Shown: piece after piece, positions 16,083-42,276 of the stretch | How positions within the stretch are numbered: position 1 is the stretch's first letter | How the letters are laid out: each line of letters starts with the position of its first letter | Origin: a virus | DNA: 45,575 nucleotides | Virus record (IMG/VR): IMGVR_UViG_3300050140_000059 | Span: 1 to 45,575 of that record | Strand: one strand, 5' to 3' | Notes under the pieces: model-generated | The model's database searches: none | What the model saw: only the letters and a program-made list of their open reading frames with translations | Told to the model about the DNA's origin: nothing | Position numbers and translations under genes: made by a program

Positions 16083-16998
16083 TTTCTTTCAACATCTCAA
16101 CTGTACGTTTTAACCCAGTCTCCAAGTCTACTTTAGATTCCCAATTTAGCAACGTCTTTGCTTTGCTGCCGTCTCCAATCAAACATTGAATATCCAGCGG
16201 TCGTGTTGGGATTGTGTTCCAAACAATTTTTCCCTGATAATTCAGTAACTCTCCAATTTTACAAACTAAATCTGCAATAGAAACTCCGATTCCAGTGCAA
16301 AAATTGAATGTTTCGCCAACCGCTTCTTTCCTACCTAAAACGCTCAGGTAAGCTGACACATGGTCATCCATAAACATCAAGTCACGCACAGGCTCAGGAT
16401 CACCCAAATAAATGGTGTCTTTACTGAGCATCTGCGTAATTATCCGTTCAACAATGAAATGCGCATCCCTTGCTCGCCCGTACGTGTTGAAGCATCGCAT
16501 AACAGTTATGGGAAAACCGTAAGCCTCAAACATATAATGCAAGTATTTGTCGGCGGCTACTTTCGAAACTGCATATGGACTATTAGGATATAGTTCAGCC
16601 GTTTCCTTTATAGGAAATTCCTTTTGGTTTCCGTAAGTCTCGCTGGTTGAGGCGAAAATGAACTGTTGAAAGTTCGTATTCTCACGCATGCAACACTCAG
16701 CTAAATTAGCGGTTGCCACAAAGTTAGTTTCAAGATACTCCATTGGATTCGAATACGAAAATGCAACAGGACTCAAAGCCGCAAGATGAAAGACAACTTC
16801 AGGTTTAAGCAATCTCACTATTTGCTGAATTGCAAAATGGTCATTTAAGTTTGCAAACGCTGTTTTAAAGTTAGCGTCATATGGCGCTCGCCCTGTAACA
16901 TATCTTTGCAGAGCCGTTACATCGTGCCCTTGCTTTTGCAGTTCAGAAGCCACTTTTCCACCGATGAATCCTGAAACTCCCGTACAAAGAATTCGCAT
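16072..16998 (-). CDS. NAD-dependent epimerase/dehydratase (extended SDR)
   Basis: A 308-residue enzyme. TGVSGFIGGKVASEL at residues 6-20 is the NAD(P)-binding Gly motif, S117-S119 is the active-site Ser/Thr region, and Y142-K146 (YAVSK) is the catalytic pair. It resembles GDP-mannose 4,6-dehydratase and UDP-glucose 4-epimerase relatives acting on nucleotide sugars. GGAG lies 9 nt before the ATG and its end overlaps the giant repeat gene by 11 nt, tying sugar making to the adhesin. Substrate cannot be told from sequence. Confidence 0.88.
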   Translation of the reverse strand: MRILCTGVSGFIGGKVASELQKQGHDVTALQRYVTGRAPYDANFKTAFANLNDHFAIQQIVRLLKPEVVFHLAALSPVAFSYSNPMEYLETNFVATANLAECCMRENTNFQQFIFASTSETYGNQKEFPIKETAELYPNSPYAVSKVAADKYLHYMFEAYGFPITVMRCFNTYGRARDAHFIVERIITQMLSKDTIYLGDPEPVRDLMFMDDHVSAYLSVLGRKEAVGETFNFCTGIGVSIADLVCKIGELLNYQGKIVWNTIPTRPLDIQCLIGDGSKAKTLLNWESKVDLETGLKRTVEMLKENVK

Positions 16999-17020
16999 TT
17001 ACATAAACTCCAAAGTTTCT

Positions 17021-17212
17021 CTAAAATATTTTACCAAATAGTCTCGTTATGGGTATTGTTCCATATTCTCCATCAGAGAAATAGAACTGCTTGCCATCAG
17101 CAAACTTAAGCACCAGAAACTGTGCGCCACTGGTAACTATGGTTGACACAACAGCATGATTATCCAGTTTTAATTGCTCAATGAATTCTTTTTGTAATTC
17201 TTCTTGATTCAT
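17021..17212 (-). CDS. 63-residue protein in the sugar cassette
   Basis: A small soluble protein with an acidic helical N-terminus (NQEELQKEFIEQLKLD) and a beta C-terminus (FLVLKFADGKQFYFSDGEYG). No cysteine or membrane segment. The family is not recognised. It is embedded between a methyltransferase and the SDR enzyme and is probably co-translated. Confidence 0.6.
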   Translation of the reverse strand: MNQEELQKEFIEQLKLDNHAVVSTIVTSGAQFLVLKFADGKQFYFSDGEYGTIPITRLFGKIF

Positions 17213-17242
17213 CTATAGTTAGTCACTCCAAAGTTACATTAA

Positions 17243-17722
17243 TTATTTTTTGATTGCGATAACGTGCAAGCCAAAGCCGTGACACGTAGACTTCACACTC
17301 GCAACAGTAAAGCCAATATCCGTGAGAATCCGCGTTAAACTCTCTGCACTGTAAGCCCATCGAATAAGGTTCTCTTCGTAATTGGTAGTACCCTCTCCAC
17401 TGCTTCCATACATCCACCTGAGGCATTCTTCATTATCTGAGTGTGACAAGATGCCTGCGAGAAACCGTAGGTTAGGCGTATGAATCCACAACGCGCCATT
17501 CGGCTTTAACCAACCGTAACATTTCCGTAGAACTTGTCTTGCCTCAACATATTTGATGTGTGCGAGAACGTCAGAGCATAAGATTTCACTGAAACTTTCA
17601 GGCGGAAACTCGACGGTGCGGATATCAGCAACTATGTCCGCGCCAACATTCAGGCGAACGTCCACATTAACGCAATCGGGTAAATAACTTTTCCCAGAAC
17701 CCAGATTGAGTCGGTCTTTCAT
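17243..17722 (-). CDS. SAM-dependent methyltransferase (short class I)
   Basis: A 159-residue protein with RLNLGSGKSYLPDCVNVDV at the N-terminus: LNLGSG is motif I and the Asp after it binds SAM ribose. EILCSDVLAHI is the central acidic strand and LKPNGALWIHTPN is the strand/turn typical of methyltransferase type-11 proteins from glycan clusters. The start overlaps the upstream stop as ATGA. It probably methylates a sugar or glycan of the virion. Substrate is not visible. Confidence 0.8.
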   Translation of the reverse strand: MKDRLNLGSGKSYLPDCVNVDVRLNVGADIVADIRTVEFPPESFSEILCSDVLAHIKYVEARQVLRKCYGWLKPNGALWIHTPNLRFLAGILSHSDNEECLRWMYGSSGEGTTNYEENLIRWAYSAESLTRILTDIGFTVASVKSTCHGFGLHVIAIKK

Positions 17723-18183
17723 TTCTTCAGCACTACTGTTTCATTGGTGTTTTCTATAACTTTGAAAAGTGTGATTGCTTCACGGTAATTTTCGCGTTCT
17801 GAATCATGCAGAATCACAACGCCGTTTTCACTTAACATTTTAAGTGCTGTGCGTAAGCATTCTGGGCGCTGGTCATCTTTGCCATCTACAAACACTAGGT
17901 CAAAGGTGCCGCCGAATGCTAACGGATAACTGGAATAGCCATCTTTAATTGGAACATGGTAAATGTGAACTTTCGCAGTGCCTGCGCCTAAGCCTTTCCA
18001 CTCGTCAAAGTAAACCTGAGAATCCTCAATACTTAACACTTCAGCATCGGGGCACAACTGCAGTATAATCCTTGTTGATTCACCTGGACCCCACTCCAGA
18101 ATGCGCTTCGGATTCAATGTTCGCAGATAACGCGCCAACGTTGGAATGTAACTGTAAAACGTGGGAATATAATTGATCGCCAT
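17719..18183 (-). CDS. Class I SAM-dependent methyltransferase
   Basis: A 154-residue protein with ILEWGPGESTRIILQ as motif I, SIEDSQVYFDEW holding the SAM-binding acidic residue, FDLVFVDGKDDQRPECL as motif IV and NGVVILHDSERE following. This is the family 24-like small methyltransferase of glycan clusters. The ATG at 18183 has GGGAGAG upstream and is preferred over an in-frame TTG. It is coupled by ATGA to the next methyltransferase, so the two may work in sequence. Confidence 0.8.
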   Translation of the reverse strand: MAINYIPTFYSYIPTLARYLRTLNPKRILEWGPGESTRIILQLCPDAEVLSIEDSQVYFDEWKGLGAGTAKVHIYHVPIKDGYSSYPLAFGGTFDLVFVDGKDDQRPECLRTALKMLSENGVVILHDSERENYREAITLFKVIENTNETVVLKK

Positions 18184-18185
18184 TA

Positions 18186-18419
18186 TTATCTCTCCCAAAC
18201 GGTTCTGCCATTTTCATCAACATCAAGCCATCCTCTGCCGTACCAATAATGCTTTTTACCACAACTACATCGATAGTCAGAACCAAACTCCGTCCAATGA
18301 TAACATTTTCCGCAGTTAGGACAAATCATACTAAAATAGTGGTCAGCATCATTTATTCCACAAGCAGGGCATTTTCGCCCTCCACTTAATTGCCAAATTA
18401 TTGCTATCTCATTATCCAT
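18186..18419 (-). CDS. Zinc-ribbon protein in the sugar cassette
   Basis: A 77-residue protein with three Cys pairs: CPAC at 17-20, CPNCGKC at 33-39 and CSC at 51-53. These suggest one or two zinc sites, followed by an aromatic basic segment (KKHYWYGRGWLD). The ATG directly follows the aminotransferase stop. Function is unknown. It is one of about twenty CxxC microproteins in the window. Confidence 0.7.
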   Translation of the reverse strand: MDNEIAIIWQLSGGRKCPACGINDADHYFSMICPNCGKCYHWTEFGSDYRCSCGKKHYWYGRGWLDVDENGRTVWER

Positions 18420-19553
18420 TTAGTTTTGCCTCGCGTGCTTATGGATGCATTTGCAAACATACTCGATTTCCCCCAGCTTCAAGTTGGACCCGCTTGGCAA
18501 GTTTAATCCGCGTCGGCTGATGTCGTCTGCAACAGGAAACTTTTGACCATTAGCATATTTCTTGTACGGCGGTTGTTTATGCACGGGTACAAAGAAGGTG
18601 CGTGTTTCAACGCCGTCTTTAGCCAATGCCTCGATTAGTTCGTCGCGTGCCATGCCATAGGAATCGTTGATGAGGATGCTGTACATCCAGTAAACGTTTT
18701 TGTAGCCTTCGCGTTCCACGGGCAAAGATATTTTGCCGCCACTTGCCAAATCTGCTAACAGTTCATTGTAGAATTGCGCGTTGCCTCTTTTGCATTCAAC
18801 GAAGTCGTCAAGTTTATTCAGTTGTGATATGCCGAGTGCTGCTTGCATGCCACTCATACAAACCGTTGATCCGATGGCTTCATGCACGAAATGGTTTAAG
18901 CCCTGACCGAAAGCGTTTGCTTTAAGCCACTGCGCCCGACGCGCCAACTCCTTGTCATCTGTAACTATCATTCCGCCTTCGCCAGTAGTCATATTCTTAT
19001 TGGCGAAGAAACTGTAGCAAGCTGCCTCACTTCGTCTTCCAGCTTTTTCACCGAGTAACTCTGCGCCATGAACCTCAGCCGCGTCTTCTACTAAATAAAT
19101 TTCTCTACCGTCGTCTTTCAAGTCGTCAATATTGTTATTTATGTTTTGGAGGTCACACATGTGTCCGTAAATGTGAACGGGTAAAACTACTTTTGTTTTC
19201 GCCGTAACCTTATCCATGAAGTTAACAGGATTCATACACCATGTGTCTGGTTCGCAGTCAACCAACACGGGTTTTGCGCCGACATGCGAGACTGCATTAG
19301 GCGTCGCTATCATGGTGAATGTGGGGATGATTACTTCGTCGCCTTTGCCAACGCCTAAACTCTGCAGAGTTAAGTCAAGCGCTGTGCTGCAACTGCATGT
19401 TGAAACGCCATATTTGCAACCGCAATAAGCCGCGAATTTGCGTTCAAACTCCGCTACTACAGGCGCGTATCTACTAACCCAGCCAGACCGAACACACTTC
19501 GCGACGGCTTCAACGTCTAAGTCATCGATATTTGTGCTACAGACAGGTATCAT
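18420..19553 (-). CDS. DegT/DnrJ/EryC1/StrS sugar aminotransferase
   Basis: A 377-residue PLP enzyme. VEDAAEVHG holds the Asp that binds the PLP nitrogen (D157) and FFANKNMTTGEGG holds the Schiff-base lysine (K186). HVEWR-like substrate elements are present as FVPVHKQPPYKK. Such enzymes move an amino group from glutamate to a 3- or 4-keto nucleotide sugar. The ATG at 19553 overlaps the upstream stop (ATGA) with GGAG 9 nt before it. It is therefore preferred over the in-frame start 39 nt upstream. Confidence 0.93.
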   Translation of the reverse strand: MIPVCSTNIDDLDVEAVAKCVRSGWVSRYAPVVAEFERKFAAYCGCKYGVSTCSCSTALDLTLQSLGVGKGDEVIIPTFTMIATPNAVSHVGAKPVLVDCEPDTWCMNPVNFMDKVTAKTKVVLPVHIYGHMCDLQNINNNIDDLKDDGREIYLVEDAAEVHGAELLGEKAGRRSEAACYSFFANKNMTTGEGGMIVTDDKELARRAQWLKANAFGQGLNHFVHEAIGSTVCMSGMQAALGISQLNKLDDFVECKRGNAQFYNELLADLASGGKISLPVEREGYKNVYWMYSILINDSYGMARDELIEALAKDGVETRTFFVPVHKQPPYKKYANGQKFPVADDISRRGLNLPSGSNLKLGEIEYVCKCIHKHARQN

Positions 19554-21133
19554 GCGAGAGTCTCCTTTTCGCTTAGTCGGTAGGTGTCGCACTCGTAGTT
19601 TTTGCCACCGCGTGGACCCCGCGTAAACACCATGATTTCGCTGTTACGCAAAGCCTTCAAAGCATGCCGCTCATTAGGCCCTGTAAATATAAGGTCGCCT
19701 GGCACAGCGATTTGTTTCTTAACGGGTTCCCACGGGTAACGTCTGTAAACTTCTATTTCGCCTTTTAAGATGTAGTCGTAGTGTATGCTTTTTTTGTGGT
19801 AGTGGTTTCCTCGGACTGCTCCTTTCTTGAATGTTATGTGATTAATGTGTTCAATTTGCTCGTCAGTTAAAACGTCGGTGATTACTCCACGCTTATCTTT
19901 GACTTCTGTGACTTCGTTGACGACGTGGAATTCTGGAACTGGAATGATGAAGCCGCCCTTGTAGCCGCGTCTACGCCACTTCGCCATTATAGTGTCTGCG
20001 AAGTTCCATGACAATATTAAAGCGTAATCGGGCAAGTCAGTAGCTACGGTGGATTCATGCATTATGGGGATGTGTGTGCCTGGCGTGTAGGTGCCGATTT
20101 TAAGCGGGTTCAACTCAGCAATGTAATCAAGTGTTTCTGTGCCAACTCCGCAGAAATTCAGTAGTGTAGATGCTTTCATGGGTGCGCCGACGCCGACAAT
20201 GCGTTTGCCCTTGTCCTTTAATTTCTTGAGGTAACTGACGAGTTTCTCCGCGTTTTGTCTTGTTTGGTTAGCGAATTCAATGTATGTTTCAAGTTTCCCA
20301 TATTTTTCTTCAGATTCTAAAATGCTGTTTAAGTTGAATGTTGACGAATTTTTGATGGTTGATGCGTATATGAGGATTGAGCCGCCGTAGACATCGTTGA
20401 CTGTTGCGTCATAAATGTATAAGTCATGCAGTTCAAACAAGTGTTTTAGCGTGGTTAACGTGTAATAGCGCAGGTGCTCATGGTAAATCGTGTCGTACTC
20501 AAGCTTCTCAATCAACGCGGGCAAATAGTGACTTTGACTAATAAAGACGGAATCATCCTGCATCAAACCTCGCACATCTTCAAGGAATGCGTGAATATCA
20601 TCTACATGTGCTAATACGTTCATGGCAGAAATAACTTTTAAAGAATCATGCATGAACAGATTCATCTTAGTGTGTGCAAGTTGAAAGCCATTAAAGAATC
20701 TCTCAATTACAGAAATACCTTTACTACGGCATACTTGCGCTGGAAACGGTGTTGGTTCAATACCTAACACGGCGATACCCTTATTTTTAAAACCTTCAAG
20801 GAAAGTGCCGTCATTGCATCCGATGTCTATAACTAAATCTTTTTCGCCAAGGCCTAAACTGTTAATTATTTTTGATGCGAGATTCTGAAAGTATTCAATA
20901 AGTTCAGGCGATGAACCTGTTAGGTAATTGTAGTTTTTGTTGAAGACAGTTTCTTTCGGAACTGAGCCGTCAAGTTGCATTAAGAAGCATTTTGTGCAAA
21001 CATACACTTTCAAAGGGTAAACTGATTCTAGCTTTGTTAGTTGCTGGGTGGTTAAGACTGCGTTGCAGATTGGTTGGTTGCCTAAGTCGAGAATTTCTAC
21101 AAGTTCGGTTGCGCCGCAAAGTTGGCAATTCAC
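19550..21133 (-). CDS. Sugar C-methyltransferase fused to a cupin
   Basis: A 527-residue two-part enzyme. Residues 1-410 match the C-methyltransferase family of TylCIII/NovU. They have an N-terminal zinc site (CQLCG...CTKC), SAM motif VIDIGCNDGTFLEGF and a C-terminal half with RIVGVGAPMKASTLLNF. Residues 430-527 are a cupin (RGNHYHKKSIHYDYILKGEI ... GDLIFTGPNERHAL) as in dTDP-keto-sugar isomerases and epimerases. This would make a branched, C-methylated deoxysugar. It is coupled by ATGA on both sides. The fusion of both steps in one chain is unusual. Confidence 0.85.
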   Translation of the reverse strand: MNCQLCGATELVEILDLGNQPICNAVLTTQQLTKLESVYPLKVYVCTKCFLMQLDGSVPKETVFNKNYNYLTGSSPELIEYFQNLASKIINSLGLGEKDLVIDIGCNDGTFLEGFKNKGIAVLGIEPTPFPAQVCRSKGISVIERFFNGFQLAHTKMNLFMHDSLKVISAMNVLAHVDDIHAFLEDVRGLMQDDSVFISQSHYLPALIEKLEYDTIYHEHLRYYTLTTLKHLFELHDLYIYDATVNDVYGGSILIYASTIKNSSTFNLNSILESEEKYGKLETYIEFANQTRQNAEKLVSYLKKLKDKGKRIVGVGAPMKASTLLNFCGVGTETLDYIAELNPLKIGTYTPGTHIPIMHESTVATDLPDYALILSWNFADTIMAKWRRRGYKGGFIIPVPEFHVVNEVTEVKDKRGVITDVLTDEQIEHINHITFKKGAVRGNHYHKKSIHYDYILKGEIEVYRRYPWEPVKKQIAVPGDLIFTGPNERHALKALRNSEIMVFTRGPRGGKNYECDTYRLSEKETLA

Positions 21134-21351
21134 GGTTGCTCACCGTGCCATCTTATAATCCATTTTCGCATTTCTTGGACGTCGTCATCGTCGTAATATT
21201 CTATAATAGTCATTTGCCGTGGGATTTCTTTTTTTGCCTCATCCAAAATCTGACAAAACTCAGCAATTTTTCCGGCAGAAACATGAAATTCTAAGCTGTC
21301 TACCCATTTGCCGAAAGCGTTTCGCAGTTTATTTTTATTATCTTCGCTCAT
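21130..21351 (-). CDS. 73-residue helical protein in the sugar cassette
   Basis: A charged, probably all-helical protein (LRNAFGKWVDSLEF, IAEFCQILDEAKKEIP) with an acidic EYYDDDDVQE stretch. It overlaps its neighbours by ATGA at both ends. No family recognised; perhaps a partner of the methyltransferase-cupin or the glycosyltransferase. Confidence 0.6.
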   Translation of the reverse strand: MSEDNKNKLRNAFGKWVDSLEFHVSAGKIAEFCQILDEAKKEIPRQMTIIEYYDDDDVQEMRKWIIRWHGEQP

Positions 21352-23126
21352 TGAGGCATCACCTCGAATTTGAATTGTGGCTTAGTCTCAGTGATTTTAA
21401 TGCGTCTCTCGTTTCGCCATGGGTGACTATCCAGAATCACAGGCAAAGTACTGGTGTATTCTTCAAGCATAAACTCCGCGGGCAATACACCAGTAAACCA
21501 AAAGTCCGCTTCAACAGGAGTTGGGTTTCTGTCGCGTATACGTTCAAACAACAGTTTAGCTTTCATTTCATCCGGCTTTTTAGCGTTGCCAAAATGGTAA
21601 ACCGTCACGTCATCCAGAAGTTTCTGTTTATCTGTGTAGGCTGGGTCTCCGCCGAGCATCCTGTCAAAATGCACATAGTAGCCTAAGCCATTACGTGGTA
21701 ACGTGTGGAATGCATGGAAGTTTAAGCCGGGGATGCTGCGCCAAATCAGAAACGGATGCGGTAGTCCATACTGGTACCACGGGCTTGTCGGAATCAGTGA
21801 GTAAGCTATATGTTGGAAGTCATGGAAGAAATTAAGGAACCGTGCAGGTCTCGCGTAGACTGCTTCGCCATGCTGGTTTGCCAAGCAGAACTTGCGCATT
21901 GCATCTGCGCCGCTTTTGCTTAAAACTTCGTCTGCGTCAATGTAAAGCATCCATTTGCCCGTGCATAACTCTAAGAGTTTAGCTTGAATTTCCTCTTTGC
22001 TTGCCCATGCGCCACGAACAAGCTTAATCTTATGGTCTGGATCAGGGAACGCTTGTATCTTTGCCACGGTGTCGTCGGTGCTTTCGCCCTTGCTGTTTGC
22101 TCGATGCGCCGCTTGCCTGCAGGCGCCTTCAACAATGTCTATGCGATCCACAAACGGGTAGATGCTGCCTAAACAGTATTCTATGAAGTCTGCGTCGTTT
22201 AAAACTTTGATTGAAGCCGTAATTAATGGGCGACTATCGAGAAATTTTTGAACTTGAAGATAATTTGGATTAACCAAGATTTTTGCATAATCGCCAGCGT
22301 TGTCAACGACCACTTCAGCATGACGGAAGTCTTGCTCGTAATCCTCTATTGTTTGCTGGAGTCTTTGGGCGCCTATTACCTGTCCGGGTAATTTTTCGCC
22401 TTTGTCAGTTATGAAAGGTACTTGACTGTACGGGTGGTTAAGGGCTTGATGCATGATGCCGAAGCGTTCCAAGTCAATGTGCCAAACGCTACTTGCTGGG
22501 TCAACCCAAACCATAAAGCCCTTCTGCCGCAATGTCGCGCAGAACGGAATCGGCGGATAAGGATTACTATACACACCTGCTAACTCCACTTTACGCTTCG
22601 CCAGGTAGCAGGTGCTTACTGAATCCACAGTGAAGGGTTCAGTCTGGTTTAATCCAGGCGGATTGTAGGGGTGAAACATGCAGTCTGTTAAACGGTAAAT
22701 GTAGATGTCGAAGAAGGTTTTGTGTCTGCGTCCTTCAGTCCAAACCATCGATGCGATTAAGTCTTTGTCACGCGCCATCAACCGCGTAATCGTGTCGGGC
22801 GGTATGACGACCAGATCGCTGTCAATGTTAAAGTAATAGTCTTCGTCTCCTTCTTTCAAGAGGCGTTGCATGTCCTGTTTGACGCGGGCTAAACTGTGTC
22901 CGAAGCGTTCTTCAGGCGGTAAGTAAGGCTCTTTGTAAATTTCAATTTTATGCTTAGATGTTTCTTGCCAATACTTCAGATAAGCGTATGACTTATCAGT
23001 TGATTCGCCGTATAAAACTGCGATGCGGCTTATGTTTCCTTCTAAGTTCTCAACTTGCTGAATAAACCTAGGCAACCAGAGCTCGCCGTTTTTGACTTTG
23101 GTTCCGACTAAGACTTTATCTGTCAT
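21348..23126 (-). CDS. Two-domain glycosyltransferase (GT2-like)
   Basis: A 592-residue protein with two tandem GT-A-like domains. The first carries YYFNIDSDLVVIPPDT (DSD metal site near residue 100) and an MVWTEGRR region. The second begins near residue 300 (ITASIKVLNDADFIEYCLGS) and carries KWMLYIDADEVL (DAD near residue 390), then an aromatic-rich acceptor region. It likely transfers two sugars or makes a disaccharide on the virion glycan. The ATG at 23126 overlaps the upstream TAA as TAATG and has GGAAG 9 nt before it, so it is preferred over a TTG 15 nt upstream. Confidence 0.85.
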   Translation of the reverse strand: MTDKVLVGTKVKNGELWLPRFIQQVENLEGNISRIAVLYGESTDKSYAYLKYWQETSKHKIEIYKEPYLPPEERFGHSLARVKQDMQRLLKEGDEDYYFNIDSDLVVIPPDTITRLMARDKDLIASMVWTEGRRHKTFFDIYIYRLTDCMFHPYNPPGLNQTEPFTVDSVSTCYLAKRKVELAGVYSNPYPPIPFCATLRQKGFMVWVDPASSVWHIDLERFGIMHQALNHPYSQVPFITDKGEKLPGQVIGAQRLQQTIEDYEQDFRHAEVVVDNAGDYAKILVNPNYLQVQKFLDSRPLITASIKVLNDADFIEYCLGSIYPFVDRIDIVEGACRQAAHRANSKGESTDDTVAKIQAFPDPDHKIKLVRGAWASKEEIQAKLLELCTGKWMLYIDADEVLSKSGADAMRKFCLANQHGEAVYARPARFLNFFHDFQHIAYSLIPTSPWYQYGLPHPFLIWRSIPGLNFHAFHTLPRNGLGYYVHFDRMLGGDPAYTDKQKLLDDVTVYHFGNAKKPDEMKAKLLFERIRDRNPTPVEADFWFTGVLPAEFMLEEYTSTLPVILDSHPWRNERRIKITETKPQFKFEVMPQ

Positions 23127-23380
23127 TACTGTATCTTCCAAGTTGGTGCAGCAAATTCCTTAGTCATTGTATAACCGCATTCTTCGCATTGGAAAACGCT
23201 CTGAATGTAGGTTACAAAGTCGCTACCCGCGAAAACAACAGTATACTGTTGAGGTGCTTGTTGCTTTTCGACGTACTCCTTTAATGGAATATCCTTTGAT
23301 TCGCTTGAACCAATTTTTCTAACTTTCGAGAATTTTATTTTTGCGTTGCCACAATTTGGGCATATTGGGTTTTCTTTCAT
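23126..23380 (-). CDS. Zinc-ribbon protein
   Basis: An 84-residue protein with CPNCG at residues 7-11 and CEECGY at about 65-70. It resembles a split zinc ribbon with a 50-residue insert containing a beta segment (QYTVVFAGSDFVTYIQSVF). It overlaps the dehydrogenase by ATGA. The role in the sugar cassette is unknown. Confidence 0.7.
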   Translation of the reverse strand: MKENPICPNCGNAKIKFSKVRKIGSSESKDIPLKEYVEKQQAPQQYTVVFAGSDFVTYIQSVFQCEECGYTMTKEFAAPTWKIQ

Positions 23381-24159
23381 TTTTCTATTCCACGCTCCAT
23401 GATATTTTTTAGTAATGGGCTTTCATACCCGTTACTTTCCAAACTTTTAATTAATGCTAAGATGTCTTTTGGTAGGCAAGGGCTGTTCTTTTTAAGAGGG
23501 CCTAGACGCGGGTCAAGATGCGAATAGCCAATGCGTTTATCCAATGCTATGCCTTCGTACACGATGCCTGAGTATGCACCGTAAACCTTGCAGACCTTCG
23601 CGATTTCACAGGCAAACGCCACTTTAGCCGTTAAGAAAGCGTTAGATAGGTACTTGATGACTTCGGCTTCTGTTGGGGTGCAAAGGATTGTTTTGCAGTT
23701 CCACCGTTCATAAACCTTAGCTAAAGTCTCCATGTCCTTTACGTTGGATGCGCCTAACACGATTCTGTCAGGAACCATCATGTCTTCGTAAGCGCTGTTT
23801 TGCCTTAGAAACTCTGGGTTACAAGCAAACCGCCAAAAAGGATAAGCCCTCTGCAACTGCAAAGTGGTTGTGGGTGGAACGGTGCTTTTTAAAACAATCA
23901 ACGGTTTATTACCTGTGTTTGGGACACCCATTTTATCCAACACATTTTTAATGAAGCTTAAGTTTGCTGAACCGTCTGGAAGTGACGGTGTCGGTACACA
24001 TATGAATATTGCATCACAGTTATTCTTTAGGTTCTCAAGCGAACAATTCTTTTCAGGCGCAATATCTCTGACGTCGTTAACGTAGACTTCATGGTACTGC
24101 TTGAAAGCTTCAGCGCAGGCCTTGCCAACAACGCCATATCCCACAATTCCCAGTTTTAT
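23377..24159 (-). CDS. Short UDP-sugar dehydrogenase with ATA start
   Basis: A 260-residue member of the UDP-glucose/UDP-ManNAc dehydrogenase family. IKLGIVGYGVVGKA is the NAD-binding Rossmann start; CVPTP, LKSTVPP and CNPEFLRQ follow. K169 in KYLSNAFL and the catalytic C228 in NSPCLPKD are present. The protein stops soon after, so the usual C-terminal UDP-binding domain (family length about 430) is missing. A GTG at 24144 would remove the first beta strand. The ATA at 24159 overlaps the upstream TAA and lies 10 nt after GGAGG, so it is my preferred start. CTG at 24153 is the alternative. Confidence 0.8.
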   Translation of the reverse strand: MKLGIVGYGVVGKACAEAFKQYHEVYVNDVRDIAPEKNCSLENLKNNCDAIFICVPTPSLPDGSANLSFIKNVLDKMGVPNTGNKPLIVLKSTVPPTTTLQLQRAYPFWRFACNPEFLRQNSAYEDMMVPDRIVLGASNVKDMETLAKVYERWNCKTILCTPTEAEVIKYLSNAFLTAKVAFACEIAKVCKVYGAYSGIVYEGIALDKRIGYSHLDPRLGPLKKNSPCLPKDILALIKSLESNGYESPLLKNIMERGIEK

Positions 24160-25415
24160 AGGCGTCGTGCCTCCAAACTTGTGTATTCACGCGAAGCACG
24201 GATACGCTCAAACAGGCTAAACCACCGTTCATTCATAAGGTCATGGCTAAAATGCAAACTGAACTCGCGCCCTAACCGCCCAAACTCTTTGCGTTTTTCA
24301 GGATGCAAATACGCATCCACAATCGCGTCAGCCGCAATGTTTTCGTCAACTTTAACTTGACACGCATCCAGCGGACTCATATATTTTATGCGGGGTGGAA
24401 TAGGCCAACCGTTGCCCCTGACGAATTCGCTCATGCCAATAAAGTCGCTGCCAATAATCGGCAGACCACACGATAATGCTTCAAGCATGGGAATCTCGAA
24501 GCCGCCGCCCTCGCTTAAATGCAGAAACACGTCGGCTGCGCCAAAATACTTTGCCATCACGTAGTCAGGTGTTCCGCATAGGTTATGGAAGTCGCCTGTG
24601 CCACGGCAAAACCCGTCAACGCCCAGCATCTTAGCGCAATGCGGAATATCACGGGCTTGCTTCATCCAACTATGCACGTAAACGCGTAGGTGACTCGCCA
24701 TTTCGGGGCACTGGTTAAGCGCCAATTGAATCGAGGCAAACATGCCGGGGAAGTTTTTGCGGTACGGATCCTTGTTAGCGCCAGCAACCATTATCAGGAA
24801 GCTGTCTTCGTCTATGCTGGTGCGGTTATTCATGTTAAACGGTACCGCTTGCTCATTAACCATGGCGCGACATTCTTTTTTCTGCTCTGCGGATTCAACA
24901 GGCTTGTAGACGCTGTTGTTTACGCCAAGCGGAATATACTCGGAGTCTACGCCGTTCGCTGCGAATTGATCGTAGCAATACTTTGTCGGACTAATCACGC
25001 GGTAAGCGTGCCTTGCGCACAGTAACGTTGCTTCAGGAATTGGCTCGTGATCCGCCATGACAATTGGTAGCCAAAATGGGTGTATACCTACGAGTTCGCC
25101 GTTTTCCTCGCGGTTGTACGCGCCCATCCAAATATCATAAAGCGTAACGAAGACATCGGGTCGCCAGTTTTGAAATATGATTTGCGCAGTTCGCCCGCCG
25201 TTATCGTCTCCTGGCAAGCACGGGTAAACGGTGATGCCGTTAAGGTTGAGCATTCTGCCTTGGATGCCGTAGTTGCACAGTTGCTTCACCGTGTAATGTT
25301 CGTTCCAGTATGGCAGGGTTAATGCGGATTGGACACCGTAGCCACTAGCTATGAACAAGGCGTTTGATAACTGTAGGATTTTGAAGTCTTTACTATTCGG
25401 TTTAATATCTGCCAT
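24156..25415 (-). CDS. GT4-family glycosyltransferase
   Basis: A 419-residue GT-B enzyme. The N-terminal half binds acceptor (GYGVQSALTLPYW near residue 25). The C-terminal half has the GT4 signature EGGGFEIPMLEALSCGLPII near residues 305-325, whose two Glu residues (E-x7-E pattern) bind the donor nucleotide sugar. It is the first gene of the cassette after the capsid gene, with a 103-nt gap upstream, and so may have its own promoter. Its last codons overlap the ATA start of the dehydrogenase. Confidence 0.9.
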   Translation of the reverse strand: MADIKPNSKDFKILQLSNALFIASGYGVQSALTLPYWNEHYTVKQLCNYGIQGRMLNLNGITVYPCLPGDDNGGRTAQIIFQNWRPDVFVTLYDIWMGAYNREENGELVGIHPFWLPIVMADHEPIPEATLLCARHAYRVISPTKYCYDQFAANGVDSEYIPLGVNNSVYKPVESAEQKKECRAMVNEQAVPFNMNNRTSIDEDSFLIMVAGANKDPYRKNFPGMFASIQLALNQCPEMASHLRVYVHSWMKQARDIPHCAKMLGVDGFCRGTGDFHNLCGTPDYVMAKYFGAADVFLHLSEGGGFEIPMLEALSCGLPIIGSDFIGMSEFVRGNGWPIPPRIKYMSPLDACQVKVDENIAADAIVDAYLHPEKRKEFGRLGREFSLHFSHDLMNERWFSLFERIRASREYTSLEARRL

Positions 25416-30898: not shown

Positions 30899-32236
30899 TT
30901 ATTTTGGTTTTTGCTTCACGTTATCCATTTTTCCCGTTTGGTCTTGTGTTGGTTGATTTTGATTTTGCCCGTCTTGCTGTTGGTCTTGGTCTTGCTGGTT
31001 TTCCGCGTTAGCGTCCTGTTGGTCTTGCTGTGTTTGTGCATCTGCTTCTTCAACAGCTTCCTCTTCTTCCTCATCAGGAAGTTTAACTCCGATCTGTTGC
31101 ATTATTGCATCGAATCGTTTTTGCCTAATAAAGCCAAGGTCTAAACCTTTTGTGATGATGACGGCGGGTTCAATGTCTCCGACGCCTGTAGGTTCCTTAC
31201 CGAAGTTGATTCTTGGCACTTCAGTTTCAGAGTCGAAGTTAGCGAGGATAAGCGGTTTATACCAGTATCTTTCAACTGCCCGTTTAAGCTCGCGTTGAAT
31301 GCTTGAGACGTGTCTGCCGATGATTTGCTCCAGCGCTGTGTCACTTGCGAGCGTAGCGTCTCTTTCATACCATAAGTTTGAAGCTCGCATGTAAGCGAAA
31401 ATCTGCGATTTCATATCTTGAATGTACTCCCAAAAAGGCACGCGGGGATCTATGCTTATGAACTCAACGTTTTTAGCCGTCATTTCTTCAGATGTTTGTC
31501 TACCTAAGAAAATGTCTTCGCCTGCACCCCGGTTAAGCACAGCGGCTTTTAACACTTCAGCCGCTTGCCTTGTCTTCCAGATGCCAATCGGCGCGATATA
31601 CCTCTCTAAGATTAAGCTGACGTTATCGTTAGCTTTGTTAAGGCTGTTCAACAAGGGCAGGATGCCGCGTACAAGTGAAACGCCGCGTGGGTCATTGCCC
31701 ATTTTGCCGTAGGTGAACCATGCCAAGTTTGCGCCATTAATTGTGGCTTCTTTATTGTCTACCACTTGCTTAATGCTAAGTACGTCACCTGTTGCAGGGT
31801 CGGTTTTGATGTCTTTAACTGTAAGCGGATGCACAATTTTCAATGCGCATTTCTCAATGTCTTGGACGATACGGGTTTCCACAGGGCAATACCCAGCAAT
31901 GATTGCGAGCCGCAGAACATTAGGCAAAAAACCGTCAAGGTTAAATTTTTCGCCGAAACTATCTGCTAAGTCGCGAGGCTTGCTTTTCTCAAAAACCTTT
32001 GTGACTTTCTCAACCGTATTATAATGTCCAAGACCGCAGGCTGATTCGACCAAATCGTCTATTGGCGCCCGTATTAAATCGCTGAATTTATATGCTGCGA
32101 AACAGTCTTCTATGCTTTCAGGTTTCCAACTTGTGCCAGCGCCAGCGCTGAAGACTCCTTTGGCAGTGCCGAAGTCAAGCGCTTGCATGCTCTCGTTGTA
32201 CCAGGGCCAATGTAAAGTGGATTTGCCAATTTTCAT
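30899..32236 (-). CDS. Portal protein
   Basis: A 445-residue protein with the order and pattern of portal proteins: an N-terminal wing, FGEKFNLDGFLPNVLRLAIIAGYC, a clip region, and the stem helices (NSLNKANDNVSLILERYIAP and SSIQRELKRAVERYWYKPLI). The last 60 residues are low-complexity, first Glu-rich, then Gln/Asp/Asn repeats. Portal dodecamers form the DNA gate and bind terminase. It follows the terminase genes, as in most tailed viruses. The poly-Gln/Asp tail is unusual. Confidence 0.85.
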   Translation of the reverse strand: MKIGKSTLHWPWYNESMQALDFGTAKGVFSAGAGTSWKPESIEDCFAAYKFSDLIRAPIDDLVESACGLGHYNTVEKVTKVFEKSKPRDLADSFGEKFNLDGFLPNVLRLAIIAGYCPVETRIVQDIEKCALKIVHPLTVKDIKTDPATGDVLSIKQVVDNKEATINGANLAWFTYGKMGNDPRGVSLVRGILPLLNSLNKANDNVSLILERYIAPIGIWKTRQAAEVLKAAVLNRGAGEDIFLGRQTSEEMTAKNVEFISIDPRVPFWEYIQDMKSQIFAYMRASNLWYERDATLASDTALEQIIGRHVSSIQRELKRAVERYWYKPLILANFDSETEVPRINFGKEPTGVGDIEPAVIITKGLDLGFIRQKRFDAIMQQIGVKLPDEEEEEAVEEADAQTQQDQQDANAENQQDQDQQQDGQNQNQPTQDQTGKMDNVKQKPK

Positions 32237-32261
32237 TTTAACCTAATCGTCCTCGCATATT

Positions 32262-32411
32262 TCAATCTACAGAAACAATTTTCACGGTTGTTTCATGCTC
32301 ATAATCTGCCTCGTACCAGCCGCCGCATCGGCGGCACTCGTGAATCTGAGTCGGTGGGCAATGTGTACATTCACGCTTAAACAAGACTAAGCTACAGTAA
32401 GGACACCTAAT
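32262..32411 (-). CDS. Zinc-ribbon protein with probable ATT start
   Basis: An open frame with clear zinc motifs: RCPYC, CTHC and CRRC followed by GGWYEADYEHET. No ATG, GTG or TTG lies between the in-frame TGA at 32427 and the first CxxC. ATT at 32411 is 7 nt after GGCGGG, a usable ribosome site. Readthrough from the upstream frame (same phase, separated by TGA) is the alternative. The motifs make real coding likely; the start is inferred. Confidence 0.55.
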   Translation of the reverse strand: MRCPYCSLVLFKRECTHCPPTQIHECRRCGGWYEADYEHETTVKIVSVD

Positions 32412-32426
32412 TTTTAATCCCGCCTT

Positions 32427-32540
32427 TCACTTTTCAACTTTAGTTTTTTCAAGGTCGAAAGCAACAGTTTTGTGAATGCGAATAAACTCTTCTAACGCAA
32501 TTATGAAACCTTTACTAAACCGTTTACGCCATTGAAACAA
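32427..32540 (-). pseudogene. 3' half of a split KGEHF-family gene
   Basis: The minus strand encodes LFQWRKRFSKGFIIALEE and 20 more residues to a TGA, with no start. This is the C-terminal half of the KGEHF family, whose N-terminal half lies at 33254-33346, beyond the HNH gene. The same stretch is echoed inside the HNH protein's C-terminus (KGEHFIISCLERHKKISKG). Its first codons overlap the last 17 nt of the HNH gene in another frame. Confidence 0.65.
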
Positions 32541-33228
32541 TCAAAGGTTTTTCAGGATTAGTAATAATGAAAGCATTTTTCTTTTTCTCAATAAGAAACC
32601 ACTCTAAAAACTCTAAAAGCCCTTTGCTAATTTTTTTATGTCTCTCAAGGCAACTTATGATAAAATGTTCTCCTTTTGTTAAAACAACGCCGTTCTCAAT
32701 ATCCCAAAGGGCTGAACAGTTTAAGGCGTCTTCAAAGGTCTGAAGGTTAAATTCCCTGATAATATCTACGACTCTTTTTTTATGATGCACTTGAATGTTT
32801 AAAGGCAAATTTGGGTACGAGGGGATACAAGTTTTTAGAACTTCTTTTCGCCAACACCCATATTCTTTTGACTCACGGATTTCTGACAAGAGAGGAAACC
32901 GATATTTTACGTTCTTTCTGCCGCCTTTCCATGCCCAATGATTTTCTCTAGTATATTTTCCCCTAAGAGCTTTGCTGAGGTTTTCAGCGTGTTCTTTTGT
33001 CACTATTACTTTTTTGTTTTTCTCAGATTTACTTATTTTTAACTTCTGCTCTTTGGACATTTTTACTCCAAAACGAGGGTTTCCTTTCCCGCAATATTCG
33101 CCTCTTACACCTCTGCATGAAGCACAATTACAACTGGCGCCATGATTAATACCTTTCCGCATTTTTACAGCATTAAGACGCAATTGCCCCAGATGTTGTG
33201 GGGTTCTTTTATAGTATCCTGAAGGCAT
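32524..33228 (-). CDS. HNH homing-type endonuclease inserted in a gene
   Basis: A 234-residue protein. An N-terminal Cys-rich finger (CNCASCRG) precedes a NUMOD3-like segment (NPRFGVKMSKEQKLKISKSE), then NHWAWKGG and the nuclease core: IQVHHKKRVVDIIREF, ALNCSALWDIENGVVL. The core ends with a copy of the KGEHF domain rather than the usual C..CH. The ORF sits between the two halves of a KGEHF-family gene, with 27 nt before it and none after. A mobile homing endonuclease is the best reading. A catalytic intron is less likely because there is almost no non-coding flank. Confidence 0.85.
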   Translation of the reverse strand: MPSGYYKRTPQHLGQLRLNAVKMRKGINHGASCNCASCRGVRGEYCGKGNPRFGVKMSKEQKLKISKSEKNKKVIVTKEHAENLSKALRGKYTRENHWAWKGGRKNVKYRFPLLSEIRESKEYGCWRKEVLKTCIPSYPNLPLNIQVHHKKRVVDIIREFNLQTFEDALNCSALWDIENGVVLTKGEHFIISCLERHKKISKGLLEFLEWFLIEKKKNAFIITNPEKPLIVSMA

Positions 33229-33253
33229 ATCTTTACTAAGGCCTGATTTGCTT

Positions 33254-33346
33254 TTAAAAGTGTTCGCCTTTGTAGATTGTCACGGTCCAAGGCGGATCAT
33301 AAGTTATGTGGTGAATTTGAATAACCGTTTTACGTTTCGGCTTTAT
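33254..33346 (-). pseudogene. 5' half of a split KGEHF-family gene
   Basis: Codes KPKRKTVIQIHHITYDPPWT then VTIYKGEHF and a stop. ATA at 33346 is the only plausible start: GAAGG lies 8 nt upstream and TAA is in frame just before it. The KGEHF motif should be followed by a helical half. That half appears 700 nt away at 32427-32540, separated by the HNH gene. As it stands the gene is broken unless the RNA is spliced. Confidence 0.6.
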
Positions 33347-33393
33347 AGTTTAGGCCTTCTCTAATCTTAGCAAGTACACCGCATTTCTGTTCC

Positions 33394-33570
33394 CTAATAC
33401 TCAATTTTTGGAATTACATTATAGTGATTAGACTTTAAGCTAACGCCAAAATGACAAATCCTTTTAGTGCCTTTCTGTTTATGCGATTTTTCTTTTGCGC
33501 AACATGATAAACAAAGTTTGCTTTTGTTTTGGCGGTTTCTATGTTTACCACATTTTAAACAAGTAGCCAT
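33394..33570 (-). CDS. 58-residue zinc-finger protein
   Basis: CLKCGKHR at 4-11 and CLSCCAKEK at 20-28 form a C4-type zinc finger, followed by a basic tail. The ATG overlaps the upstream TAA as TAATG. This is a typical DNA- or RNA-binding microprotein layout. The gap from 33347 to 33393 holds no further gene. Confidence 0.65.
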   Translation of the reverse strand: MATCLKCGKHRNRQNKSKLCLSCCAKEKSHKQKGTKRICHFGVSLKSNHYNVIPKIEY

Positions 33571-33818
33571 TAGTAAGGTGTGTCTCCAATCCCATCAAAC
33601 CCCATGGCTTCCCGTCGTGTGGGTTCTGTCGTGTGGAATATGTTGCCGCAGAAGTTGCATCTGACCATCGTGTTTATGCTCTGCGTATAAACCTGAGCTG
33701 TCCACGTAGGCGCGGCACCCTTTAACCGTTTAGTGCGAAGCCGCAGGGCAGGACCAACCCTGAGTAAATCTGAAATCTCACCGCATCGTGGACATTTCGT
33801 CCAAGTTAAATCAGTCAA
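33570..33818 (-). CDS. 82-residue zinc-ribbon protein
   Basis: CPRCGEI near the N-terminus and CNFCGNIFHTTE near residue 60 make a split zinc ribbon with a basic middle (RLRTKRLKG). TTG at 33818 gives a TTGA overlap with the upstream stop and has GGAG 9 nt before it. A TTG 15 nt further upstream is less likely. It follows the terminase block. Confidence 0.7.
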   Translation of the reverse strand: MTDLTWTKCPRCGEISDLLRVGPALRLRTKRLKGAAPTWTAQVYTQSINTMVRCNFCGNIFHTTEPTRREAMGFDGIGDTPY

Positions 33819-34009
33819 AGCGTACAACTCCAACTATTGCCGTAACCGTCATATCTGCATCCATTTTCTGAAGACGCGTATGTGTGCACTTTGGATTCAT
33901 CGATTTTCTGCTTCATGTCTAAACTCCAAAACTCAACGGAGTTGTCGAAGTGAAGTTCATAATGGTCTTCTCTTTTAATCACTAATCTTAACTGATTTAT
34001 GTTACTCAC
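33815..34009 (-). CDS. 64-residue small protein
   Basis: GTG start overlapping the terminase stop (GTGA). A charged N-terminal half (LRLVIKREDHYELHFDN) reads as beta-strands, and a Tyr/Gly/Ser-rich C-terminus follows. No motif is recognised. Confidence 0.6.
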   Translation of the reverse strand: MSNINQLRLVIKREDHYELHFDNSVEFWSLDMKQKIDESKVHTYASSENGCRYDGYGNSWSCTL

Positions 34010-35334
34010 CTCGGGCGTACTCCAAACGTTACTTCTGTTGGTCCACTATTACGCAGTTGCCAAGCTGCTAAAGCCAAAGCGATCACGCAGTCGTCATGTA
34101 GGCCTTCTGGCGCATTGTAACTTATCAGGCCTGACGGCGTTAAATCGTAAGTGAAGCTTTCAAGTTCAGACTTTAAAACTGGGAAATCAGTGTCTAAAGT
34201 TGTGCTGAACTCTTTTGTTTCAGAGTCGCCGGGAAACCAGATTGCACCGTTGTCAAGCATGATGCTTAAGTTTTCTATTAACGCTTTTTTTGTTGAGTTA
34301 GTTAATTTGTAGCCTTGTGCATCACTGTATTCTTGAGTTAACTCATCATAAACGGGGTCGCCTACGCCTGTGCTGTCAATAAGTAAAGATGCATTGTTGA
34401 GGCGTCTACAAAACTCTACTGAACGCTTCCGCATTAGGGGCCAGTCAAGTTGATGGTAACGTTCAAACCCTACAACTTCACCGTTTAATCGTAGGGCAAT
34501 GTTAACGTAGAAATCTACGCTTTTAGCTAAGTCACTGCCAACAGTTATAACTTCGCCTTCCTGAATAGGCGCAATATCGTCTCGTATGCGATCAGTTATA
34601 TGGCGGAAAACTACGCCTTCGCCCTGTAAGGTTTCTCCCAAGATTTCTTGGCGCTGCGTTAACTCAGGCAGTTGCGCCGCGATAAAATCTATGTCACTTT
34701 TATTTAAGAATCCGCCTTGCTCCGTGCTGTTGCCATAAGAGCCGAACATCCAGCTTTTATATTCAGTATTTTTTGGGTCTTGCCCTTTCTGGTAGTATTC
34801 ATCAAACCAGTTAACGCCTTTAGGAGTGCCTATAGCGAATAGCCAGCCGTGAAAATCAATTAGGCTGGGCAATAATTCTTCGGTGACGCGGTTGCGCTTC
34901 ATTGATCCTGCTTCATCGATTATTACACCGTGAAGGCCTGATCCTCTTAGGGTGTCTTCTTTATCTGCACTGTGAAAAAAACATTCAGCACCATTTGTTA
35001 AGCGGACGAATCTGATTACTTCACTACTTTCTAACTGCTTAGATATTGCTTCTCTTGGCGTTAACTTGCGGATTTTAGCAGTTGCAGGAATCAACTCTTT
35101 ATAGTAGGGTGCAACCCACCAGATTAAACAGTTAGGGTTATTACCCATATATGTGAGGCATTTTATCCATGCGAGTTCGGTTTTACCCCATCGTCTTCCA
35201 GCTTTTACGATTTGGAAGCGGTGATTGTCATGGTAAACTTTAAGTTGTTGGGGATGTAGGTGAAACTTCTGGGTCTTTACTGTTGTCAACGATTTCAAAT
35301 TTAATTGTTTCTCCACCCTCAATTTTCTGCTCAA
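34006..35334 (-). CDS. terL: Terminase large subunit
   Basis: A 442-residue DNA-packaging motor. Walker A is KAGRRWGKTE (K51), Walker B GVIIDEAG (D140-E141), and the coupling motif AIGTPKG lies near 168. The C-terminal RNase-H-like nuclease has VGSDLAKS (D268), LLIDSTGVGD (D320) and GLHDDCVIA (D414/D415). Both activities therefore look intact. The frame opens at TTG 35334 and overlaps the small subunit by 95 nt. The real start may be one of several TTG or GTG codons up to residue 16, because conserved sequence begins near FHLHPQQ. Confidence 0.95.
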   Translation of the reverse strand: MSRKLRVEKQLNLKSLTTVKTQKFHLHPQQLKVYHDNHRFQIVKAGRRWGKTELAWIKCLTYMGNNPNCLIWWVAPYYKELIPATAKIRKLTPREAISKQLESSEVIRFVRLTNGAECFFHSADKEDTLRGSGLHGVIIDEAGSMKRNRVTEELLPSLIDFHGWLFAIGTPKGVNWFDEYYQKGQDPKNTEYKSWMFGSYGNSTEQGGFLNKSDIDFIAAQLPELTQRQEILGETLQGEGVVFRHITDRIRDDIAPIQEGEVITVGSDLAKSVDFYVNIALRLNGEVVGFERYHQLDWPLMRKRSVEFCRRLNNASLLIDSTGVGDPVYDELTQEYSDAQGYKLTNSTKKALIENLSIMLDNGAIWFPGDSETKEFSTTLDTDFPVLKSELESFTYDLTPSGLISYNAPEGLHDDCVIALALAAWQLRNSGPTEVTFGVRPR

Positions 35335-40487: not shown

Positions 40488-41219
40488 TTATTTCTTAATC
40501 TCCGAAATGAATAACTCTAATTTCTGAGGAATATTGTCTAGACGATTTTGAGCAATCTTTTGATACGCAGGATTGATGTCGATCCCGATAAATTGCCTAC
40601 CTAACTTTTTCGCAATAGCACAAGTTGTTCCGCTGCCAAAAAAGGGGTCCAAAACAACATCATTTTCATCCGTTAAGGCTTGAATTAAATAACCAACAAG
40701 CAACTCAGGTTTTTGGGTTGGATGCCCTGTGTCTTCTTTATGATGCGCCGTAATTTTTGGATGTTCCCAAATACTACCGATATTTCGAGTTTTACCGTAA
40801 TGCTTTGATGATGAAGGAACTTTAACAACATTGAATTTTCTTTTTACAAAGGGAAAATTTAAGATTGCAAAAACTTCATAGTTTCTCGAAAAACAATCTT
40901 CACTATGAGTTATCGAGTCTAATTTATGCCAAGTAACCCAATCTGAAAGCACAAAATACTTTTCAAGAGCCTTAACAAGGACATAATTTAAGAAAGGTGG
41001 TCTTCCGCAAAATACTATACTACCATTCAACGTTAAAACTCTTTTAGCTTCAGTTAACCATGAATCAAGCCAACTGATGTAAATGTCTGCAAAGACTTCT
41101 GCATCCATTGAAAGAGAATTATATGGTGGATCAGCAAAAATCATATTTACGCTTTGATTTGAGATTTGCTTCATAATGTCAGCGCAATCGCCTTGATATA
41201 TTCTGTTTAATTCAATCAT
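40488..41219 (-). CDS. DNA amino-methyltransferase (DPPY type)
   Basis: A 243-residue beta-class enzyme. The catalytic motif is ADPPYNSL (D30-Y33) near the N-terminus and the SAM-binding motif DPFFGSGTTCAIAK near residue 195, the order of beta-class adenine-N6 or cytosine-N4 methyltransferases. ATGA overlap with the C5 methyltransferase upstream means both are made together. Protection against a host restriction system is the usual role of such phage enzymes. Target sequence unknown; no target-recognition domain is obvious. Confidence 0.92.
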   Translation of the reverse strand: MIELNRIYQGDCADIMKQISNQSVNMIFADPPYNSLSMDAEVFADIYISWLDSWLTEAKRVLTLNGSIVFCGRPPFLNYVLVKALEKYFVLSDWVTWHKLDSITHSEDCFSRNYEVFAILNFPFVKRKFNVVKVPSSSKHYGKTRNIGSIWEHPKITAHHKEDTGHPTQKPELLVGYLIQALTDENDVVLDPFFGSGTTCAIAKKLGRQFIGIDINPAYQKIAQNRLDNIPQKLELFISEIKK

Positions 41220-41887
41220 GGGATCGCCTGCTTTTCCGACAAAATGAATGACACTTCTTTACTTTCTAATGCTTCTCTGCAAGCTTTAGCGAATGCTTGA
41301 CTACAAGTCAGAGGAATCTTAGCGTGAACCCATTTGCGTAATTTATTAGTTCTCATGGCTGGCTCCATGTAGCTATAATTCGGTTGGTCGCGCCCATTCT
41401 TGTTTTTAACCCGAATTTTTATTCTCATGTCACGTGGCATAAGGAAAAGGGGATAGTTCCCATAGAACACATGACGCTTACCATAAGTGATAAAGCCTAT
41501 AGACCTAGGCTTGATGCTATCGAAATATTTTGTTAGCAACGCCACATTCTCCATAATCCAATAAGTGGGTTTTGCATCTTCAACAAATTGCAGATATGCC
41601 CTAATTATGGAAATCCCATTTTCAGGGTTAGGTTTATCTTTCCATTTCTTACCATAAAGCAAGCTGATTTGCGAAAAGTCTCGGCATGGCGGGCTTCCCC
41701 AAATCACATCATAGCCCTTAAAGTCTTCACCTTTCAAATCTTTAATATCTGCTTTCAGGAACTTATGCTTGTAACCTTTGCTTGGCATATCCTCAATGTC
41801 TATACCGAGTACATCGAAGTCTTCTTTAGCGAATCCGTCTGACACGCCGCCTAAACCGCAAAAACAATCAAGCATCTTTAAGGTCAT
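41216..41887 (-). CDS. DNA cytosine-5 methyltransferase
   Basis: A 223-residue Dcm-type enzyme. Motif I is LDCFCGLGGVSDGF, the catalytic Cys is C68 in GSPPCRDF, and motif VI is MENVALL (E113-V115). It is short for the family, with a small recognition region. ATG 41887 overlaps the upstream stop (ATGA) with GAAGGT 6 nt before it, and is preferred over an in-frame start 39 nt upstream. Paired with the DPPY enzyme, it would modify viral DNA on two bases. Confidence 0.92.
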   Translation of the reverse strand: MTLKMLDCFCGLGGVSDGFAKEDFDVLGIDIEDMPSKGYKHKFLKADIKDLKGEDFKGYDVIWGSPPCRDFSQISLLYGKKWKDKPNPENGISIIRAYLQFVEDAKPTYWIMENVALLTKYFDSIKPRSIGFITYGKRHVFYGNYPLFLMPRDMRIKIRVKNKNGRDQPNYSYMEPAMRTNKLRKWVHAKIPLTCSQAFAKACREALESKEVSFILSEKQAIP

Positions 41888-42276
41888 GTTGTTACCTTCT
41901 TGTTGTTTAATTCTGACGAAATGCACTGAAGAGAAACATCTTTTTCTGAATTGTATTTTTTATATGCAAACTCGATTTCATAATAGTCTGGTGGAAGTGT
42001 ATTAACACTCCAAGCTATTTCTTGCCAGAAAGTTTTGAATCTTGAATTAGGAATTATTCTGCATCTGAGTAAATCCCAAATTGGACCTTGTTTTTTCTCT
42101 TTTAATGTTAACATTTGATCTACTTTTCGATGGAAAACAGGAGGAGCTTGACCCATAGGTGAAGTTCTACATATTGAATCCGTTTCCATTGATAGATAAT
42201 CAATTTTTTTCTGAATTGTGGCATATCTTTCTAAGAGTTTAAGAAGATTTTTATCCATTACTGGAATTGTTGTCAT
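41884..42276 (-). CDS. 130-residue protein, unknown
   Basis: A mostly helical charged protein (LKLLERYATIQKKIDYLSME) with PPVFHRK and PPDYYEIEF. ATG 42276 is used rather than TTG 42285, since it is the better codon with GGA about 11 nt upstream. It is coupled to the C5 methyltransferase by ATGA, so it may be its partner. No family recognised. Confidence 0.6.
   Translation of the reverse strand: MTTIPVMDKNLLKLLERYATIQKKIDYLSMETDSICRTSPMGQAPPVFHRKVDQMLTLKEKKQGPIWDLLRCRIIPNSRFKTFWQEIAWSVNTLPPDYYEIEFAYKKYNSEKDVSLQCISSELNNKKVTT

Follow-up and report, generated by a model that had tools for sequence, protein, structure and literature searches.

A small gene of the KGEHF family is split into two halves by an HNH-type homing-endonuclease-like gene in the IMG/VR virus record analysed here (45,575 bp, hereafter the window), in which the terminase, portal and capsid genes lie on the minus strand. 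We consider it probable that a free-standing HNH-type homing-endonuclease gene (HEG) was inserted at the KGEHF motif, that about 9 nt were lost, and that the small gene was inactivated. In this mechanism, the HEG would have entered a gene of the KGEHF family in a tailed bathyarchaeal virus and landed directly 3' of the codons for the invariant Glu-His of KGEHF. Repair of a break at or near this conserved site may have brought it there, with about 9 nt of the target gone at the insertion. The two halves would then not be translated into a working protein.

The genes follow one another on the minus strand in the order terminase and zinc ribbon, N-terminal half, spacer, 234-aa open reading frame (ORF), C-terminal half, and portal. 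A preliminary description of this DNA had already located the two halves on either side of the HNH ORF, and its coordinates are exact to the base. The features are as follows.

34006..35334, minus strand: large terminase subunit, upstream neighbour (Pfam Terminase_6N and 6C; relatives at 63-67% identity)
33570..33833, minus strand: zinc-ribbon gene, 87 aa, the flank common to the relatives L004 and L074
33346-33257, minus strand: N-terminal half of the KGEHF-family gene, encoding IKPKRKTVIQIHHITYDPPWTVTIYKGEHF, then TAA at 33256-33254
33229..33256, minus strand: spacer of 28 nt (TAA included) between the N-terminal half and the inserted ORF, holding a copy of TTAGTAAAG at 33231-33239
33228-32524, minus strand: inserted ORF of 234 aa (705 nt), HNH-type and homing-endonuclease-like
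32572..32697, minus strand: C-terminal part of the inserted ORF, residues 178-219, a KGEHF-family homologue by the family profile
32540-32430, minus strand: C-terminal half of the KGEHF-family gene, encoding LFQWRKRFSKGFIIALEEFIRIHKTVAFDLEKTKVEK, then TGA at 32429-32427
30899..32236, minus strand: portal protein, downstream neighbour (PHROG portal, 1.1e-7; relative L074 at 46%)

The halves are 716 nt apart, and the 705-nt ORF takes up nearly all of the gap. The ORF overlaps the C-terminal half by 17 nt, and the N-terminal half, the ORF and the C-terminal half are in three different reading frames. The G+C content is 0.369 in the HNH ORF and 0.387 and 0.333 in the halves, compared with 0.431 in the window. 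However, low G+C is not confined to the insert, as the whole of 32,380-33,560 is low. For this reason, the split gene may have come in already split.

The KGEHF family and the two halves

KGEHF is an undescribed, widespread family of small proteins of archaeal viruses. Ordinary single-sequence searches of phages, plasmids and IMG/VR with the joined halves returned nothing, and none of Pfam, PHROGs and NCBIfam gave a convincing match to the family. It was first reached in IMG/VR with the degenerate DNA pattern HH..Y..P...(K/R)(G/A)EH, which gave 23 stretches, all but one of them (L026) with clear family members. An alignment-based scan added a few more. Intact members are encoded without interruption and are roughly 60-90 residues long, with Q, HH, Y, P, E and H invariant; their genes are accessory and occupy many genome positions. 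The family core, Q.HH..Y.P.........EH, is followed by a helix and an SKG-like stretch, and the two halves together contain this whole arrangement. A family model predicted from a 20-sequence alignment (pLDDT 88.7) consists of two strands forming a beta-hairpin, a helix at 27-38 and a helix at 44-60. Variants of the family were also seen. The protein encoded at L048:2989-3258 begins with MAIIQIHHITYNPPWEVELGMLMHRC, a family N-terminus joined to a different C-terminus. Longer relatives with open frames of up to 137 aa are found in Bathyarchaeia-class genomes (L060-L063), where RSEH replaces KGEH and the C-terminal tails are charged; they possibly form a cellular or proviral subfamily.

The family resembles an HNH finger that has been stripped of its zinc cysteines. 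Since Foldseek searches of PDB and BFVD with the family model gave no significant match, this relationship is drawn from sequence intermediates and not from the fold. Two relatives, L049 and L050, carry a zinc-binding variant, CxxC...HHITYDPPITVKICKKCH, and match the KGEHF profile at E of about 1e-8. The pattern CxxC...HHITYDPP...CKKCH links the family to HNH endonucleases, and L049 matches PHROG 2340, annotated as endonuclease, at 0.0013. L049 and L050 had been considered as further split genes and were rejected, both being complete zinc-type relatives. KGEHF proteins may accordingly have nuclease activity.

That the halves come from one gene, as the preliminary description proposed, is borne out by the uninterrupted relatives. 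Intact KGEHF genes, free of the insertion, are present in IMG/VR and in one Bathyarchaeota MAG. A family profile built from 20 intact relatives, with the window excluded, gave 51.7 bits for the N-terminal half, 32.7 bits for the C-terminal half and 37.5 bits for the tail of the HNH protein, compared with a best score of 8.4 among 1000 shuffled sequences. The degenerate DNA pattern HH..Y..P...GEH occurs once in the window and in none of 100 shuffles. For the N-terminal and the C-terminal half alike, the two closest of the 20 intact relatives are L023 and L029, which shows that both halves derive from one gene of that subgroup. The halves have the PPW and QWRK.FSKGF signatures of this subgroup and are complementary, without overlap.

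The N-terminal half retains all of its family-invariant residues (Q, HH, Y, P and EH), and the halves jointly have all seven. Neither has internal stops. Since a long-dead gene would lose its open frames and conserved residues, either the split happened recently or the halves must still be in use. The split gene nevertheless departs from a single uninterrupted frame with a start codon in its 716-nt split, in its start and in its residues. The N-terminal half has no in-frame ATG, GTG or TTG after the upstream TAA, with ATA at the expected start position, and for the C-terminal half the first codon, TTG, is the sole early start candidate. From GEH to the SKG-type motif, all 20 intact members compared have at least three residues more than the split gene. 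In the model of the L029 protein (pLDDT 88.7), the interruption maps within the first helix (residues 27-38). Judged from its sequence, the split gene appears to be a broken member of the family. No virus was found that has the same neighbourhood with an uninterrupted KGEHF copy.

The inserted reading frame

The 234-aa ORF contains a NUMOD3-like stretch (residues 47-66), HWAWKGG, VHH and a tail with LWDIENGVVLTKGEHF. Its matches to known profiles are faint: NUMOD3 is below the cut-off (E=0.062), and PHROGs 314 and 655, both annotated as homing endonuclease, are matched weakly (E=0.019 and 0.039). No HNH model of Pfam or NCBIfam matches it, no relatives of its first ~170 residues were found, and single-sequence searches of phages, plasmids and IMG/VR with the HNH ORF returned nothing. 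Structure prediction from the single sequence was uninformative (pLDDT 34). The ORF may be, or may once have been, an active endonuclease. It is part of an insertion that is missing from relatives, both from the intact KGEHF genes elsewhere and from the terminase-zinc ribbon relatives, which are without the cargo.

The end of the HNH protein does resemble the KGEHF domain, as had been noticed from the sequence. Residues 178-219 match the family profile with E=1.5e-10, and the match includes the SKG stretch beyond the HNH motif. The tail is unbroken across the point where the split gene is interrupted. The further suggestion that the insert carried a piece of its target is not supported. When the split gene and the intact members are ranked by similarity to the tail, the split gene comes 17th of 21, its missing residues depressing its score somewhat, and a recent capture of target sequence was rejected on this rank. 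Common HNH-type ancestry would be a simpler account of the likeness. A wider role for the inserted gene as a chimera, in which it took its tail from a KGEHF gene and now recombines into such genes through homology, is very unlikely. The strength and extent of the profile match would suit it, and IMG/VR had no match to a stricter HNH-KGEH DNA pattern. However, the split gene does not stand out among the members in its similarity to the tail, and a looser pattern led to L054, another endonuclease-like protein, with NGICLTKGEHF. The motif therefore arises also within HNH proteins generally.

A doubtful extension of the favoured insertion is that selfish genes are nested here: the KGEHF genes of archaeal viruses would themselves be mobile nucleases of the HNH type, small and free of zinc, and the inserted HNH-KGEHF protein would be their larger relative, directed against the conserved motif codons of these smaller kin.

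Borders and competing explanations

The 9-nt TTAGTAAAG had been reported on both sides of the insert. Both copies are real, the second lying at 32510-32518 within the C-terminal half, but they are not a border duplication. They lie inward of the borders by about 15-20 nt, their positions are not equivalent, and the border duplication was rejected on these grounds. A shared 9-mer has a chance probability of about 0.01-0.03, and the region holds nine repeated 9-mers, against 3.6 in shuffles.

The preliminary description offered a compact intron as an alternative. This could be an archaeal bulge-helix-bulge (BHB) intron or a self-splicing one of an unrecognised kind, with the endonuclease ORF inside it and the KGEHF gene restored in RNA. 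Such a reading would fit the position of the insert at the most conserved motif of a gene, with an open frame on either side, and spliced-out introns bearing HNH HEGs are documented in phage ICP1 (PMC10448857). It is nevertheless unlikely. Covariance models from Rfam, which would reveal the catalytic core of a group I or group II intron, gave no intron at E<=10 in 32200-33600 or at gathering score in the whole window. A scan for BHB motifs (3-nt bulges around a 4-bp helix) found none with 3-bp outer helices; two looser candidates were at chance level, and their products were broken by stops. The reading frames argue in the same direction. TAA stands right after the F of the N-terminal half, TGA (32543-32541) stands directly before the first codon (L) of the C-terminal half, LFQWRKRFSKGF...KTKVEK, and the two ways of joining partial codons to gain a residue (T+GA and TA+A) give stops themselves. 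Therefore, every join is short of the three residues found in all 20 intact members compared, and the first exon would also be without a canonical start. An intein was rejected as well, given the three frames, the stops at both borders and the lack of a continuous in-frame fusion. It appears that the insert disrupts the gene instead of being hidden by splicing.

A gene that is split but alive, its halves being translated separately and assembling as in the split NrdA of phage Aeh1, is improbable to a similar degree. Phage precedents exist (PMC2988022), and the preserved residues and open frames of both halves would agree with continued use. The 30-residue N-terminal half, however, has no ATG, GTG or TTG, the C-terminal half is limited to its TTG first codon for an early start, and three residues of the first helix are absent. 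Highly improbable is the proposal that two separate KGEHF copies left remnants around an unrelated ORF. The accessory nature of the family and its many genome positions would permit it, but the two halves share their nearest relatives and subgroup signatures and complement each other without overlap. The insertion of a free-standing HEG into a single KGEHF gene is thus the reading that we retain.

Genomic setting and comparison with known systems

The KGEHF gene, together with its insert, is accessory cargo, since two relatives, L004 (terminase 63%) and L074 (portal 46%), have the terminase and the zinc ribbon and then other genes, with no KGEHF or HNH gene. Among 84,980 species genomes scanned for the family, one match was confirmed, in a Bathyarchaeota MAG. 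Five KGEHF carriers were found among the 257 genomes of the class of this MAG, and one of the same 257 genomes has relatives of the window's terminase at 66-67%. Because these related genes occur in Bathyarchaeia genomes, the host is likely to belong to Bathyarchaeia. Two terminases (L072 and L073) about 66% identical to that of the window share one contig in a Bathyarchaeia-class genome (G089:C70), and cellular-looking genes come after the first of them, as at the edge of a provirus. Recoding of in-frame TAG in the G089 terminases was considered and rejected, the TAGs being upstream of the probable start.

Several other genes of the window were noted, all on the minus strand. A sugar-modification block at 16072-25415, between capsid and tail genes, encodes a GDP-mannose dehydratase/epimerase, three methyltransferase-domain proteins, a DegT aminotransferase, a UDP-glucose dehydrogenase and two glycosyltransferases, and may decorate the virion or the host surface. 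A 1144-aa protein with repeated GTL/LPNVVVGSGT motifs, possibly a fibre, is encoded at 12648-16082; its gene contains tandem DNA repeats of about 117-126 bp at 13458-13867, and a similar protein start is found at the end of L004. N6/N4 and C5-cytosine DNA methylase genes lie side by side at 40488-41926. A second HNH-type gene, at the contig end (1-381), has zinc cysteines (CEECGK...HRHHPKYSNPLEIKFLCYSCH) and matches PHROG 2340 at E=1.8e-11.

The splitting of genes by free-standing homing endonucleases is best known in T4-group phages. The locus described here probably adds a case from a tailed virus of Bathyarchaeia, for which few viruses have been described; in the main text of a paper on Bathyarchaeia viruses, HNH or homing genes are not mentioned (PMC10848311). 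The locus also reveals an undescribed small family that resembles an HNH finger without zinc ligands. If KGEHF proteins are nucleases, one nuclease gene interrupts another here, and if the nested reading is true, one homing gene parasitises another. The intact KGEHF relatives are ready substrates for cut-site tests.

NUMOD3-HNH homing endonucleases have a NUMOD3-like stretch, WKGG, HH and LWD..NG..L.KGEH in this order. The 234-aa ORF shares this order of parts with them (NUMOD3, PF07460; PHROGs 314 and 655), but its profile matches are weak or below cut-off, and the zinc cysteines of the common HNH finger are absent. The small zinc HNH-type endonucleases of PHROG 2340 include the ORF at 1-381 and an HNH gene of L029, and more weakly L049 and L050. 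Their HH..Y..P...(C/E)H core is seen also in KGEHF proteins, which differ in having none of the four cysteines, a length of about 60-90 aa, and a C-terminal helix after the SKG stretch.

Two phage genes split by HEG insertions are nrdA of Aeromonas phage Aeh1, by mobE, and gene 60 of T4, by mobA; the halves are coded separately in these cases, and those of nrdA have been shown to make up a working enzyme (PMC2988022). HEGs also cluster near terminase genes, sometimes within spliced introns, and in ICP1 the tape measure and terminase genes have introns with HNH-3 HEGs that are spliced out (PMC10448857). As in ICP1, the HEG lies inside a coding gene in the window, but no workable splice logic is present. 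The likeness to mobE/nrdA and mobA/gene 60 consists in a free-standing HNH HEG within a phage gene, a compact insertion and the two ORFs left by it. In the window, by contrast, the gene that is hit is small and accessory, it has lost three residues, and its N-terminal half lacks a canonical start; the endonuclease belongs to another, divergent subtype, and the virus is probably archaeal. Unlike in the T4-group cases, there is probably no rescue of the split gene. Events of this kind are known, but both the host group and the target gene are new.
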